Assembly: GCF_009834545.1 (NCBI RefSeq)
Contig: NZ_CP019427.1
Span: 4,904,001-4,968,000, forward strand
DNA length: 64,000 bases
Direction of reading: 5' to 3'
DNA from: Pseudomonas sp. S04
GTDB lineage: Bacteria > Pseudomonadota > Gammaproteobacteria > Pseudomonadales > Pseudomonadaceae
Positions 2,469 to 7,054 of the stretch are shown in pieces. Position numbers and translations under genes: made by a program. Below the pieces are notes generated by a model. The model saw only the letters and a program-made list of their open reading frames with translations. It was not told the DNA's origin and searched no databases. Each line of letters opens with the position of its first letter. Within the stretch, counting starts at the first letter, position 1.

Positions 2469-3056
2469 ATGACCGACCTTCTGCTTACACTCATCAGCAC
2501 TGCCCTGATCAACAACTTTCTGTTGCAGTGGCCGCTGGGCGTCGATCCCTTGCTGCAAGCCGCTCGCGCCCCCCAGGCAGAACGGCGCCAGGTCCACGCC
2601 CTGGGCATCAGCACCACCTGCCTGATGTTGCTCAACGGCGTCCTGGGTTATGCCGCTTATCATTGGCTGCTGGTGCCGCTGGGCCTGACAGCCCTGTACC
2701 TGTTGCTGTTGTTGCCCTTGAGTGTGCTGCCCATTTCACTGCTGCTGCGGGGGCTGACGCGGGCCTTGCCGCAATTGCCATTTGCCGGACTCTGGCCGTT
2801 GCTGCTCGGCAATGCCGGCGTGCTGGGCTTGAGCCTGATGAGCATGCATAGCGACCAGGGCCTGACCTGGCACCTGGCCCTGAGCCTGGGCGCCGGATTG
2901 GGCTTCTGGCTGGTCTTGGGCCTGTTCAGCGACCTGCGCCAGCGCACCCTCAATAACGATGTGCCGATGGCCTTTCGTGGCTTGCCGATCGACCTGATCA
3001 GCGCCGGATTGATCGCCGTGGCATTTCTCGGATTCAGTGGACTGATCAAAACATGA
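2469..3056 (+). CDS. rnfA: Electron transport complex subunit RnfA-like
   Basis: Integral membrane protein of the RnfA/NqrE family, 195 aa with about six membrane segments. The ATG at 2469 is chosen because the family begins MTD/MTE followed by a helix ending in NNF; longer reading upstream runs through the metG terminator. The C-terminal [20 protein letters not shown] is typical of RnfA. Known family members carry two cysteines that ligate a membrane [2Fe-2S] cluster shared with RnfE, in LGxCPF and TNCAVLG. Here these read GVDPLL and GNAGVLG, so both cysteines are missing. It overlaps rnfB by 4 bp (ATGA). I infer a divergent or degenerate RnfA. Confidence 0.85.
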
Positions 3057-4267
3057 GTCTGATTCAACGCATCGACGCCCTCCTGCCCCAGACCCAATGC
3101 GGCAAGTGTGGTCACCCCGGGTGCAAGCCTTATGCCCAAGGCATTGCCAGCGGCGAGGCGATCAACAAGTGCCCGCCAGGCGGTGACGAGACCATCGCCG
3201 CACTCGCCGAACTGCTGAAGCTGCCGGTCATGCAACTGGACCACAGCCGGGGCTCGGCGCCGCCACAGGTTGCCTATATCCGGGAAGCCGAATGCATCGG
3301 CTGCACCAAGTGCATCCAGGCCTGCCCGATCGACGCGATTGTCGGCGCAGCCAAGCTGATGCACACCGTGATCATCGACGAATGCACCGGCTGTGACTTG
3401 TGCGTAGCCCCCTGTCCGGTGGACTGCATCGAAATGCACCCCCTGCCCTCGGCCCAGGTACTGCCGATCGTTGGCGGCCTGGCGTTCACTCCCGAGCAAT
3501 TTCAAGCGCGCAGCGTCAAACGCGAGCATGCCCGCCGGCGCTTCGAACAACGCAACGCCCGGCTGGAGCGCGAAGAACAGCAGCGGCTGGCCGAGCGCGC
3601 AGCACGCGCAGCCAAAGCCGCACAGCCGGCAGCCACTGGTGCCAATCCGGTGCAAGACGCCATCGCCCGCGTGCAAGCGCAAAAAGCCGCAGCGGCCGAT
3701 GCTGCCCTGAAAAAAGCCAAGATCGATGTGGCGATGAGCCGCGCGCAACTGCACAAATCCCTGAAAGCCTTCGGCCATCCGCCGACCAGCGAGCAACAAG
3801 CTCAACTGGTGGTGCTGCAACAGCAGTTCGAAGCCGCCGAACACGCCTTGGCGCAGCTCGAAAGCAGCGCCCCGGCCAATCCTCCGCAACCGCCCGCACC
3901 AGCCAATGACGCTGAACTCAAGCGGGCGAAAATCCACTTGGCGATGCGCCGCGCCGAACTGAGGAAAGCCCAGGACAACGCTGCGCCTGCCGAGCAACTG
4001 GCGGCCCTGAGCGCCGCGCTGGAACAGGCCGAACAAGCCTTGCACGCCGCCGAGGACGCCAGCGGCAAACCACCACCGCAATTACTGCGCCGGGAAAAAC
4101 GCCCGATCGACAGTCAACTGCGACAACTCAAGACTGAACTGGCCTATGCCCGCGCCGAGGTGAGCAAACTGCAGCGACAGGCCCAGACACCGGCAGAGCT
4201 CTTGAGCCAGGCACGCGCCAGGCTCGAGGAGGCCGAGCGCCAGGTGAGCGACTATGTCGCCCCTTGA
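3053..4267 (+). CDS. rnfB: RnfB-like ferredoxin subunit with long RnfC-type C-terminal tail
   Basis: 404 aa, about twice the usual RnfB length. Residues 1-60 hold the RnfB Fe-S motif (C16, C19, C24, C40) but no N-terminal membrane anchor, which Escherichia RsxB has. Residues about 82-130 hold two 4Fe-4S ferredoxin motifs ([12 protein letters not shown] and [12 protein letters not shown]). From about residue 155 a charged helical tail follows, with [15 protein letters not shown], then [12 protein letters not shown], then three related units ([48 protein letters not shown]). That tail resembles the C-terminal repeat tail of RnfC/RsxC, and no rnfC gene is present. It overlaps rnfA by 4 bp and rnfD by 14 bp. 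Confidence 0.88.
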
Positions 4268-5240
4268 ACCCGTCGACGATCGCCTGCAACAGGCGATGCA
4301 GCGTGTGCTGTTGGCCACCGTGCCGGGCATCCTGCTGTTGCTGTGGTTTAGCGGCTGGGGCGTGCTGTTCAATCTGCTGCTGGCGTGTACCAGTGCACTG
4401 GCAGTGGAAGCCGCGGTGCTGCGTCTGCGCGGTTACCCGCTCAAGCCGGCCCTGAGTGATAGCAGCGCCCTGGTCAGCGCCACCTTGCTGGCTCTGGCAC
4501 TGCCCGCCTACTGCCCCTGGTGGTTGACGGTGAGCGCGGCGGCCGGGGCGATGCTGTTCGGCAAACACCTGTATGGCGGCGTGGGTAGAAACCCGTTCAA
4601 CCCGGCCATGCTCGGCTTTGCCCTGGTGCTGGTGTGTTTCCCGCAACAGATGACCCACTGGCCCAGCCACGGACTGAGCCTGCAGGGAGGCCTGCAGCAG
4701 ATTTTCGGCTTCAGCGCAGCTGCGCAACCGGACGCCTGGGCCCAGGCCACCGCGCTGGACAGCCTGCGAATCAATAAAAGCCTGACCATCGACGAACTGT
4801 TCGCCGCCAACCCGGCATTTGGGCAGTTGGGTGGCAAGGGGATTGAATGGGTGAGCCTGGCATTTCTCGCCGGCGGCGCCTTTCTCTTGCAGCAACGAGT
4901 GTTCAGTTGGCACGCCCCGGTGGGGATGCTCGGCAGCCTGTTCGTCATCAGCCTGTTGTGCTGGAACGGCTCGGGGTCCGACTCCCACGGTTCGCCACTG
5001 TTTCACCTGTTGAGCGGTGCCACCATGCTCGGCGCGTTTTTTGTCGTCACCGAACCGGTGTCCGGGGCCAAGAGTCCCAAGGCACGCCTGCTGTTCGGTG
5101 TCGGCGTGGGCCTGTTGACCTACCTTATCCGAACCTGGGGCGGATACCCCGACGGAGTGGCGTTTGCAGTGCTGTTGATGAACCTCTGCGTGCCAGCCCT
5201 AGAGCGCCTCTGTGCAGCGCAACCGGAGCCGGCATCATGA
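4254..5240 (+). CDS. rnfD: Electron transport complex subunit RnfD
   Basis: 328-aa polytopic membrane protein of the RnfD/NqrB family. It keeps the flavin-attachment motif SGAT at residues 254-257, where Thr257 is the expected covalent FMN site, followed by [11 protein letters not shown]. The motif [18 protein letters not shown] near residue 115 is also typical. The start lies inside the end of rnfB (14-bp overlap), suggesting translational coupling, and the stop overlaps rnfG by 4 bp. It directly follows rnfB, where rnfC would be expected between them in P. aeruginosa-type clusters. Confidence 0.92.
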
Positions 5241-5842
5241 AACGCAGCCTCAGCGTCCTGAGCCTGGTGATCATTGCCGTCCTGTGTACTGGCGCCACTT
5301 ACCTGGTGCAACAGCTCTTGGCGCCGCGGATTGGCGCGCAACAGCGGTTGATCGAGAGCCGCAACCTGCTGGACATGCTGCCGGCGGGCAGCTACGACAA
5401 TCAGCCGCTGGACCAGCCACTGGCGATCAAGGGCGTGGTCCTGGCCAACAGCACACTGTTGGGTGGCTACCGGGCGAACCTCAATGGCAAGCCTGCGGCG
5501 ATCATTTTGCTGAGTCGGGTCACCGGCTATGAAGGCCCCATCGACCTGCTGCTGGTGATCGATAGCCAGGGCAGGCTGCTGGGCGTCAAAACCCTCAAGC
5601 AAGGGGAAACCCCGGGGCTGGGAGCCAGGATCGCCACACACCCCAACCCTTGGCTGGAGGGTTTTATCGGCAAGTCGCGGAGTGACCCGGGCGACAGCGG
5701 CTGGGCGCTGAAAAAGGACCAGGGCCAGTTCGATCAACTGGCCGGTGCGACCATCACCTCCCGTGCGGTGATCAGTGCGACCCACGATGCCTTGCGCTAT
5801 TTCGATGAACACCAACCACAACTGCTCGGCAGCGCGCCATGA
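5237..5842 (+). CDS. rnfG: Electron transport complex subunit RnfG
   Basis: 201-aa RnfG/NqrC family protein with one N-terminal membrane anchor (residues about 5-25) and a periplasmic FMN-binding domain. The flavin site reads AGATIT with Thr172 as the expected FMN-linked residue; the usual first residue Ser is Ala here. The motif KQGETPGLGARI (about 118-130) is typical. The ATG at 5237 overlaps the rnfD stop by 4 bp and fits the family N-terminus; the same frame is open further upstream but lies inside rnfD. It overlaps rnfE by 4 bp. Confidence 0.93.
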   Translation: MKRSLSVLSLVIIAVLCTGATYLVQQLLAPRIGAQQRLIESRNLLDMLPAGSYDNQPLDQPLAIKGVVLANSTLLGGYRANLNGKPAAIILLSRVTGYEGPIDLLLVIDSQGRLLGVKTLKQGETPGLGARIATHPNPWLEGFIGKSRSDPGDSGWALKKDQGQFDQLAGATITSRAVISATHDALRYFDEHQPQLLGSAP

Positions 5843-6390
5843 ACAAGACCTCGACCCTCCAGAACTCCTTGATGCTGGCGCCTCTGATCGGCGCCAGTGA
5901 CACGTTGCTGACGGCCTTGAGCCTGGCGCTGCTGTGCGTGCTGGTGATCGCTGTCTATGGGCTGAAAATGCGTCTGTTGCGAGCCTGGCTCAGCGAGCCC
6001 TTGCATCTGCCTGCCGGGATGCTGCTCGCCGCCACCTTGACCAGCCTGGCTGCGCTGGCGACTCAGGCCTGGGTGCTTGAGCTGCATCAGCACCTGGGCC
6101 TCTACATCGGCTTGATCGCCCTGCAATGCGTGGTGCTGGAGTGCAACGGCTTTTTCACCGAGACCCGCCTGCTTGACCGATTGCGTTTGTGTGCCCTGTT
6201 CGTCAGCCTGATGATTGGCCTGGGCTTGCTGCGCGAAGTGCTGGGGCATGGCTCGATCAGTTGGCATTTGCCATGGCTGGCTGCCGACGGCAGCGTACGA
6301 CTGGCCATCCTCGCCCCCGGTGGGTTTATCCTGTTGGGATTGCTGCTGGCAGCCAGGCAAGCCTGGCTCGGCCGCTCCCCGACACCCTGA
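5839..6390 (+). CDS. rnfE: Electron transport complex subunit RnfE-like
   Basis: 183-aa membrane protein of the RnfE/NqrD family, shorter than the usual 200-230 aa. The pattern YIGLIALQCVVLE matches the second cysteine motif of RnfE (IPLIVTNC), so that cysteine is kept. The first motif, normally GLCPLLA, reads LAPLIGA, so the first cysteine is lost. Together with RnfA, three of the four expected [2Fe-2S] ligand positions are not cysteine. The LREVLGHGS segment and the C-terminal APGGFILLGLLLA are as in the family. It ends 25 bp before nth. Confidence 0.85.
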   Translation: MNKTSTLQNSLMLAPLIGASDTLLTALSLALLCVLVIAVYGLKMRLLRAWLSEPLHLPAGMLLAATLTSLAALATQAWVLELHQHLGLYIGLIALQCVVLECNGFFTETRLLDRLRLCALFVSLMIGLGLLREVLGHGSISWHLPWLAADGSVRLAILAPGGFILLGLLLAARQAWLGRSPTP

Positions 6391-6415: not shown

Positions 6416-7054
6416 ATGAATGCCGCAAAACGCCTGGAAATTTTCCGCAGGTTCCACGAAGACAATCCAGAACCGAAAACCGAGCTGGCCTATTCATCGC
6501 CCTTCGAACTGTTGATCGCAGTGATCCTCTCTGCGCAATCTACCGATGTCGGCGTCAATAAAGCCACGGCCAAGCTGTTCCCGGTAGCCAACACCCCGGC
6601 AGCGATTCATGCGCTCGGCGTCGAGGGCTTGTCCGAGTACATCAAGACTATCGGGCTGTACAACAGCAAGGCGAAGAATGTCATCGAGACCTGCCGCATG
6701 CTGGTGGAGCTGCATGGCGGTGAGGTGCCGCAAACCCGGGAAGAGCTTGAGGCACTGCCAGGAGTCGGCAGAAAGACTGCAAATGTGGTGCTGAACACGG
6801 CGTTCCGACAGTTGACCATGGCCGTCGACACCCATATTTTCCGGGTCAGTAACCGAACCGGTATTGCCCCCGGGAAGAATGTCGTCGAAGTCGAACACAA
6901 GCTGATGAAGTTTGTGCCCAAGCAATTTCTCCTCGACTCCCACCACTGGCTGATCTTGCATGGCCGCTATGTGTGCCTGGCGCGTAAGCCCCGGTGTGGC
7001 AGTTGCAGGATCGAAGACCTGTGCGAATTCAAGCAAAAAACCTCCGACGATTGA
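6416..7054 (+). CDS. nth: Endonuclease III (DNA glycosylase/AP lyase)
   Basis: Removes oxidised pyrimidines from DNA by base excision. 212 aa, like E. coli Nth (211). The helix-hairpin-helix with catalytic lysine reads LPGVGRKTANVVLN and the catalytic aspartate lies in VDTHIFRVSNR. The C-terminal 4Fe-4S motif is C-x6-C-x2-C-x5-C (CLARKPRCGSCRIEDLC). The ATG at 6416 gives the standard N-terminus MNAAKRLEIFRR; longer readings cover rnfE sequence. Co-directional with rnf, as in other pseudomonads. Confidence 0.98.
   Translation: MNAAKRLEIFRRFHEDNPEPKTELAYSSPFELLIAVILSAQSTDVGVNKATAKLFPVANTPAAIHALGVEGLSEYIKTIGLYNSKAKNVIETCRMLVELHGGEVPQTREELEALPGVGRKTANVVLNTAFRQLTMAVDTHIFRVSNRTGIAPGKNVVEVEHKLMKFVPKQFLLDSHHWLILHGRYVCLARKPRCGSCRIEDLCEFKQKTSDD

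Follow-up and report, generated by a model that had tools for sequence, protein, structure and literature searches.

What can an Rnf operon do when rnfC is missing? The question arises from a locus in a 64,000-nucleotide stretch of DNA from Pseudomonas sp. S04 (hereafter the window), positions 4904001–4968000 of a complete one-contig genome of 6.10 Mb. Open reading frames (ORFs) and family profiles give the gene order metG-rnfA-B-D-G-E-nth, with every gene on the + strand and each of the five rnf genes overlapping a neighbouring rnf gene. An operon without rnfC had been claimed in a first-pass annotation of this DNA and is borne out. Beyond that annotation lies a larger point: of the four residues with which RnfA and RnfE bind the intramembrane [2Fe-2S] cluster, three are missing. 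Since they are missing across the rnfC-less group, the electron path of Rnf appears to be broken, and this seems the strongest sign that the rnfC-less system is no longer an Rnf. We give about an even chance to the reading that the locus encodes a "half-Rnf", which would not be a pump but a flavin arm of RnfD and RnfG, supported by an RnfA/RnfE scaffold, whose electrons probably flow in one direction only, towards the cell envelope. The features on which the argument draws are as follows.

298–2349, + strand: metG, the upstream neighbour, common to rnfC-less and canonical loci (synteny).
2469–3056, + strand: rnfA, 195 amino acids (aa); Rnf-Nqr fold, PF02508; without both cluster cysteines.
2544–2546, + strand: RnfA codon 26, Asp, at the site of the first [2Fe-2S] cysteine of canonical RnfA.
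2814–2816, + strand: RnfA codon 116, Ala, at the site of the second cysteine of canonical RnfA.
3053–4267, + strand: rnfB (its product hereafter RnfB*), 404 aa; RnfB Fe-S domains, no membrane anchor, RnfC-derived tail.
3053–3457, + strand: RnfB Fe-S core, residues 1–135; FeS domain PF04060 and 4Fe-4S dicluster domain PF14697.
3473–4264, + strand: RnfC-derived tail of RnfB*, residues 141–404; predicted long helices.
4254–5240, + strand: rnfD, 328 aa; well-conserved membrane subunit that carries flavin; TIGR01946, 360 bits.
4599–4601, + strand: RnfD Asn116, aligned with the riboflavin ligand N123 of Acetobacterium woodii RnfD.
4749–4751, + strand: RnfD Thr166, covalent flavin mononucleotide (FMN) site by alignment.
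5052–5054, + strand: RnfD Glu267, aligned with the riboflavin ligand D249 of A. woodii RnfD.
5237–5842, + strand: rnfG, 201 aa; FMN subunit; TIGR01947, PF04205.
5750–5752, + strand: RnfG Thr172, covalent FMN site in an AGAT motif, by alignment.
5839–6390, + strand: rnfE, 183 aa; diverged, first cluster cysteine gone, second retained.
5878–5880, + strand: RnfE codon 14, Ala, at the site of the first cluster cysteine of canonical RnfE.
6127–6129, + strand: RnfE Cys97, the sole cluster ligand retained.
About 6416–7054, + strand: nth (endonuclease III), the downstream neighbour; PF00730 and synteny, start inferred from the frame.

RnfA, RnfB, RnfD, RnfG and RnfE are sequence homologues of solved Rnf chains. 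RnfD and RnfG clear the cut-offs of their TIGR subfamilies; the scores of RnfA (102.5 bits against 229.3 for TIGR01943) and RnfE (85.2 bits against 213.4 for TIGR01948) lie well under the respective thresholds. PF03116 is the only profile over its cut-off in RnfD, with no fused NAD-binding domain PF00175. The RnfA fold predicted by AlphaFold agrees with solved RnfA/NqrE (mean predicted local distance difference test score, pLDDT, of 76, low at residues 1–30 and the C-terminus), and since confidence is low over residues 1–30, the position of Asp26 was not taken from the model. A promoter scan gave no signal above chance.

Among 149 Pseudomonas genomes, 110 have a TIGR01946 match (expect value, E, up to 1e-10). 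In G001 and G147 the match is of the NqrB type only, which leaves 108 genomes with Rnf: 19 with canonical operons and 89 whose locus has no rnfC. The 89 include the window's genome and one frameshifted copy (L193, genome G034), in which the operon is split into several frames, with metG, rnfB, rnfD and nth equally affected, a pattern for which sequencing error is likelier than decay. With L193 left out, 87 rnfC-less loci were compared with the 19 canonical ones; L126 lacks rnfA at a contig end, and the RnfA counts are over 86. Loci with related RnfA occur in named species including P. tehranensis, P. thivervalensis, P. kilonensis and P. brassicacearum.

The four RnfA/RnfE cysteines that bind the intramembrane cluster are known from structures (PMC11889175). 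In A. woodii, mutants of the cluster cysteines are reported to lose ferredoxin-dependent NAD+ reduction, activity and growth, and the nearest clusters of RnfC and RnfB are placed more than 30 Å apart, with electrons passing via the membrane subunits (PMC11889175). In RnfA, the first cysteine is found in 0 of 86 rnfC-less loci (Asp in 70) and the second also in none of the 86 (Ala in 71), against 19 of 19 canonical loci for each. The first RnfE cysteine is absent from all 87 rnfC-less loci and present in all 19 canonical ones, in agreement with an alignment to Clostridium tetanomorphum RnfE. Only the second RnfE cysteine, Cys97, is kept (85 of 87 rnfC-less loci, 19 of 19 canonical). No new conserved Cys or His appears in rnfC-less RnfA or RnfE at a line of at least 93% conservation. 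At RnfA residue 43 (2595–2597 of the window), His stands in 74 of the 86 rnfC-less loci and Ile in canonical RnfA; at RnfE residue 70 (6046–6048), a Cys that is not a ligand is present in 19/19 canonical and 77/87 rnfC-less loci, with Leu in the window.

These counts bear on the proposal of the first-pass annotation that something other than NADH supplies the complex with electrons. In that form the proposal is not supported, since it implies an otherwise working Rnf. An extended form of it, in which an Rnf-type pump still works but uses another donor or holds its cluster in another way, can point to RnfA, D, E and G as still recognisable homologues, to the retained RnfE ligand, to the frequent Asp at the first RnfA site, and to RnfA His43 and RnfE Cys70, the latter not present in the window. 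However, one of four ligands is left, no replacement Cys or His reaches the conservation line, and RnfA and RnfE are under relaxed constraint (below). We regard such a pump as very improbable.

Is rnfC merely elsewhere? A search of the complete genome with the profile TIGR01945 gave no match above the cut-off, so that the rnfC gene at another place that might have served this operon, a possibility raised with the first-pass annotation, was not found. The top match, 57 bits, lies in a 451-aa ORF adjoining another ORF; we take the two to be NuoF-like and NuoD-like, respectively. A weak PF13375 match (27.7 bits including same-frame neighbours) falls in an ORF with a C-terminal biotin-carrier domain, presumably a pyruvate/oxaloacetate carboxylase subunit. 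An rnfC elsewhere in the genome was therefore rejected, the matches being the NuoF-like ORF and the biotinyl-carrier protein.

Gene order points to how rnfC disappeared. Canonical Pseudomonas loci read metG-rnfABCDGE-nth, and the rnfC-less loci occupy the same place; metG and nth flank both kinds, except in a few loci truncated where a contig or stretch stops, which indicates that rnfC was lost in place. In the RnfD tree (90 chosen rows, including 30 rnfC-less loci with rnfB and 11 with rnfA, D, G and E only, hereafter ADGE-only), the rnfC-less Pseudomonas form one clade (100/100) that is sister to canonical Pseudomonas, and the two together are again supported at 100/100. Because of this synteny and the RnfD tree, in-place loss of rnfC from an ancestral metG-rnfABCDGE-nth locus, with the 3' end of rnfC left on rnfB and the rnfB anchor also lost, would be the simplest origin. 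Of the ancestral deletion that the first-pass annotation had proposed, the RnfC descent of the tail stands, and the fusion event itself is retained as that simplest origin.

The tail was examined at several levels. In blastp against the 19 canonical Pseudomonas RnfC proteins it matches with E 5e-42 and 50% identity over 188 aa; the best of 20 shuffled controls reached E 0.008 and the reversed tail E 0.35. Profile-profile alignment with the canonical RnfC C-terminal regions (hhalign) gave probability 100, E 9e-53 and 47% identity over 251 columns. A tail profile searched against 3394 ORFs (E up to 10) matched only RnfC (19) and RnfB (83 + 3), where the 83 are its own building set and the 3, listed as "other", were later identified as RnfB. 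A generic coiled coil, the alternative named with the first-pass annotation, was rejected on the shuffle controls and this profile search, and its assignment of the tail to the RnfC type is confirmed. Beyond its second 4Fe-4S motif, canonical Pseudomonas RnfC closes with a long repetitive region, and the RnfB tail is colinear with it, aligning from the linker directly past that motif to the non-repetitive end. In L131 the tail, read by eye, additionally retains the first RnfC repeat. AlphaFold predicts tail helices from residue 147 at low mean confidence, with the Fe-S core below pLDDT 50; all that is taken from this model, and cautiously, is that the tail is helical. Among the best 120 RnfB relatives, all named ones are Pseudomonas proteins, besides metagenome entries.

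The membrane anchor of RnfB is also missing, as the first-pass annotation had noted, because the TIGR01944 match begins late (model position 29 when the genome was searched, 35 by hmmscan) and the N-terminus is not hydrophobic; in RnfB of the 19 canonical loci the match begins at position 1–2.

What is retained is the flavin half. The predicted flavin-attachment residues, placed by alignment, are Thr or Ser in all 87 rnfC-less loci: T 86 and S 1 in the RnfD Thr166 column, T 84 and S 3 in the RnfG Thr172 column, and T in 19/19 canonical loci in both. RnfD Asn116 is N in 87/87 rnfC-less loci, and the Glu267 column is fixed as E in 87/87, against D in 19/19 canonical loci. ApbE, the flavin transferase that attaches the RnfD and RnfG flavins, is present in 89/89 rnfC-less genomes; of the 39 genomes that lack both Rnf and Nqr, 7 have it. 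FMN_bind matches only once in 69 of the 89 rnfC-less genomes, a count that may miss diverged proteins at the E limit of 1e-5, as some genomes with two Rnf clusters show one match. The window's genome (G000) is among the 69: PF04205 matches there once, at rnfG, and PF02424 also once. It thus holds the pair, an FMN_bind protein and ApbE, by which ApbE-flavinylated extracytosolic electron transfer systems are recognised. Seven genomes (G006, G051, G056, G065, G066, G086 and G094) have ApbE without an Rnf, Nqr or PF04205 match (E up to 1e-5), and another flavinylation target is likely there.

Selective constraint separates the same parts. We compared median ratios of nonsynonymous to synonymous substitution rates (dN/dS; NG86, up to 250 pairs with Nth identity of 86–97%, saturated pairs dropped). 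In the rnfC-less set they are 0.319 for RnfA, 0.393 for RnfE, 0.177 for RnfD, 0.253 for RnfG, 0.080 for the RnfB core, 0.146 for the tail and 0.047 for Nth; the canonical values are 0.052 (RnfA), 0.125 (RnfE), 0.176 (RnfD), 0.227 (RnfG) and 0.087 (Nth). In these plain values, the relaxation is confined to RnfA and RnfE.

Could the operon then be a relic heading for loss, with no present function? The membrane genes are absent from 41 of the 149 genomes, and rnfB has disappeared from the locus on three or more occasions. Constraint is relaxed in RnfA and RnfE and, relative to Nth, mildly in RnfD and RnfG. On the other hand, the median dN/dS of all five genes is well below 1, the flavin residues are nearly invariant and accompanied everywhere by ApbE, the change to Glu at RnfD 267 is fixed, and the A, D, G and E frames are open in 86/87 rnfC-less loci, among them the 11 from which rnfB is gone, the remaining locus stopping at a contig edge. 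A relic seems improbable to us, if less so than a working pump.

How would a half-Rnf work? The Rnf path is described as U-shaped, running from RnfB through the A/E cluster, the RnfG FMN, the RnfD FMN and the RnfD riboflavin to RnfC and NAD+ (PMC12174285, PMC11889175). Loss of the cluster closes the first limb, and only the second could operate. With three of the four cluster ligands gone, the arm from RnfB over the A/E cluster to RnfG would be dead, and RnfA and RnfE would serve as a scaffold. The flavin-attachment residues and the genome's ApbE having been retained, the RnfD riboflavin, the RnfD FMN and the RnfG FMN would stay active between the cytoplasmic side of RnfD and periplasmic RnfG, carrying electrons one way from cytoplasm or membrane to a periplasmic acceptor. 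One-way electron flow was proposed by Méheust et al. for other partial NQR/RNF systems (PMC8238504). More tentatively, the RnfC-derived tail may dock RnfB*, as a soluble ferredoxin, at the former place of RnfC, where its clusters would feed the RnfD riboflavin; RnfB* could in this way replace the ferredoxin domain of RnfC. In Azotobacter vinelandii, a long C-terminal helix of RnfC is reported to touch RnfB and RnfH (PMC12174285).

The distribution of the two halves complicates this picture. RnfB (TIGR01944, E up to 1e-20) is found in 130/149 genomes. It is present in 78 and absent from 11 of the 89 rnfC-less genomes, and of the 41 genomes without Rnf membrane genes, 33 retain RnfB alone and 8 have neither. 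Either half can evidently persist without the other, and RnfB need not belong to a complex at all. In the RnfB tree (29 of the 77 rnfC-less rows that pass a 90-bit cut for the RnfB core; few columns, unsettled bootstrap), RnfB-only Pseudomonas are nested several times among rnfC-less ones, in a clade (99/99) that also includes L292, from another family of the order. The ADGE-only loci, in which rnfB was lost, have at least three origins in the RnfD tree.

These observations speak for a different reading, in which two unrelated survivors share an operon: RnfB* would be an independent soluble ferredoxin, and RnfADGE a separate membrane flavoprotein with quinol or another membrane donor. All 19 RnfB-only loci read are flanked by metG and nth, no Rnf protein of the rnfC-less group is under stronger constraint than the RnfB core, and anchor-free RnfB with RnfC-like tails occurs in other families, in genomes without rnfD. 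Yet RnfB persists in most rnfC-less genomes and stands in the same operon in the loci read, and a regular expression for the far end of the tail matches more often where ADGE is present (29/77 loci) than where it is absent (2/19; p 0.03, kinship uncorrected). We consider two survivors somewhat unlikely, but the most serious of the alternatives.

Returning to the half-Rnf, several points weigh against it. With 33 RnfB-only and 11 ADGE-only genomes among the 149, RnfB* is not an obligatory donor, and the tail is retained in 19/19 RnfB-only loci read, which speaks against the view that it serves for docking to RnfD alone. No gene for an electron donor or acceptor was found in the neighbourhood viewed, namely metG and nth. 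Relative to Nth, dN/dS in the rnfC-less set rises not only for RnfA (about 11-fold) and RnfE (about 6-fold) but also about 2-fold for RnfD and RnfG, so the flavin half is not wholly unaffected. The association of ApbE with rnfC-less genomes (Fisher p 1e-23) is uncorrected for kinship. Finally, rnfC is present in 25/149 genomes, the 19 canonical ones and six with an rnfC-less locus (G021, G022, G057, G072, G093 and G103), where it adjoins another rnfD in a separate Rnf cluster. In G022 (L147), the second cluster with rnfC is distant from the rnfC-less operon, and an ApbE match lies about 10 kb from it on the same contig.

Outside Pseudomonas, rnfC-less Rnf loci are rare. Among 185 genomes across the class, 110 have rnfD and 108 have rnfC; rnfD without rnfC occurs in four, the window's genome, G241, G283 and G301, and contig ends leave rnfC undecided in G283 and G301. 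Besides the canonical Pseudomonas set, 27 of 29 RnfB rows judged anchored by a hydrophobicity rule have no tail. The exceptions, L284 and L312, have an anchored RnfB followed by the RnfC 4Fe-4S domain and tail, an overt fusion of rnfB with the 3' end of rnfC. At L284 (4250–5221, G241), the operon is A-B::C-D-G-E, with all A/E cysteines intact and no NADH part, a different truncated Rnf. At L312/L358 (L358: 8466–10075, G258), the first RnfA cysteine is replaced by His, and no rnfD, rnfG or rnfE lies within the stretch examined. The two fusions indicate that the NADH part was lost by fusion into rnfB elsewhere too.

Many other families of the class include genomes that lack an rnfD match but have an anchor-free RnfB, mostly with a short RnfC-like tail (L195, L198, L211, L217, L292, L294–L311 and L313). 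By eye, the short tail reads RFxxRxxRL then AAxxRxKAKK, and its bearers fall at several places in the RnfB tree. Loss of the anchor paired with an RnfC-like tail looks recurrent; a single ancestral origin of all anchor-free tailed RnfB was considered and is not supported, as the tree forces at least three label changes.

A second gammaproteobacterial lineage has independently lost RnfA cysteines and rnfC. In family f120, whose named records are Thiotrichaceae, Gammaproteobacteria or Proteobacteria metagenome-assembled genomes, a search with cysteine-less RnfA matched 32/53 genomes. We read the best 25 of the 32 loci and later added L356 and L357, a sample that leans towards cysteine-less RnfA. 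In those best 25, the first RnfA cysteine is absent from 25/25 and the second from 23/25; rnfD directly follows rnfB in 14, rnfC does so in 10, and one shows neither in the 0.9 kb seen. Asp stands at the first-cysteine site in 14/14 rnfC-less and 4/11 other loci of the 25, a Cys-to-Asp change common to f120 and the rnfC-less Pseudomonas. In L356 and L357, which have rnfC, the first cysteine is gone and the second is still there. The first cysteine is thus already missing from f120 members that retain rnfC, so it was probably lost before rnfC was; in these members the donor could be NADH. In 20 loci read further, the RnfD FMN residue is T in 18 and S in 2, and that of RnfG is T in all 20. The f120 rnfB frames encode 169–282 aa with no RnfC tail seen, and RnfB of L293 is anchored. 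Loss of RnfE in f120 was excluded, as in all 17 genomes searched PF02508 matches a second time, outside the rnf locus, at what is probably RnfE.

The two losses of rnfC, in Pseudomonas and f120, lie far apart in the RnfD tree. A broader reading would be that evolution cut Rnf in half twice, leaving a flavin arm that exports electrons one way to the periplasm, with, in Pseudomonas, the RnfB ferredoxin docked via an RnfC tail at the former place of RnfC, and the Cys-to-Asp change making the redox-gated RnfA/RnfE dimer a redox-silent, possibly ion-binding scaffold. We hold this composite rather unlikely as a whole.

Compared with the Rnf of A. vinelandii (Rnf1, 8ahx) and A. woodii (9eri), the window has homologous A, B, D, G and E subunits and shares the FMN threonines of RnfD and RnfG, but it lacks RnfC, the RnfB anchor and three of the four A/E cysteines, and has an RnfC-derived RnfB tail. 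Canonical Pseudomonas rnfABCDGE (e.g. L162), at the same metG-nth place and sister in the RnfD tree, differs in having rnfC of about 750–960 aa, an anchored, tail-less RnfB and all four cysteines. Two-subunit NQR/RNF-like systems are likewise partial, with one-way flow proposed from the cytosol to extracytosolic FMN; as described there, their RnfD is fused to an NqrF-type NAD domain and its flavinylation site, kept in the window, is not conserved (PMC8238504, PMC10979944). The stand-alone RsxB/RnfB (NF005415 PRK06991 model) is also an anchor-free RnfB with a short RnfC-like tail, whereas the Pseudomonas tail is longer, carries Pseudomonas RnfC repeats and usually stands alongside ADGE. The ancestor of Na+-NQR is proposed to have lost rnfB and switched donors (PMC4014512); unlike the window, Na+-NQR has the D/E cluster and the RnfC homologue NqrA (PMC12174285). 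Literature searches, with subscription papers mostly outside them, found no published description of an Rnf operon without rnfC, and no paper linking RnfB with P. putida, nth and metG or RsxB with Burkholderia, RsxC and SoxR.

Judged by their sequences, these Pseudomonas operons annotated as Rnf or Rsx would be unable to perform the Rnf reaction as it is understood, and metabolic models and annotations that treat them as ferredoxin:NAD+ oxidoreductase are probably wrong. The full complex, the B-C fusion, the rnfC-less operon, ADGE alone and RnfB alone form a natural series in which the two arms of Rnf can be tested separately, and which raises the question of what the flavin arm does on its own. 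The loss of the NADH-binding subunit and of most cluster ligands, beside a retained flavin half, suggests an old Rnf machine rebuilt for a different job.

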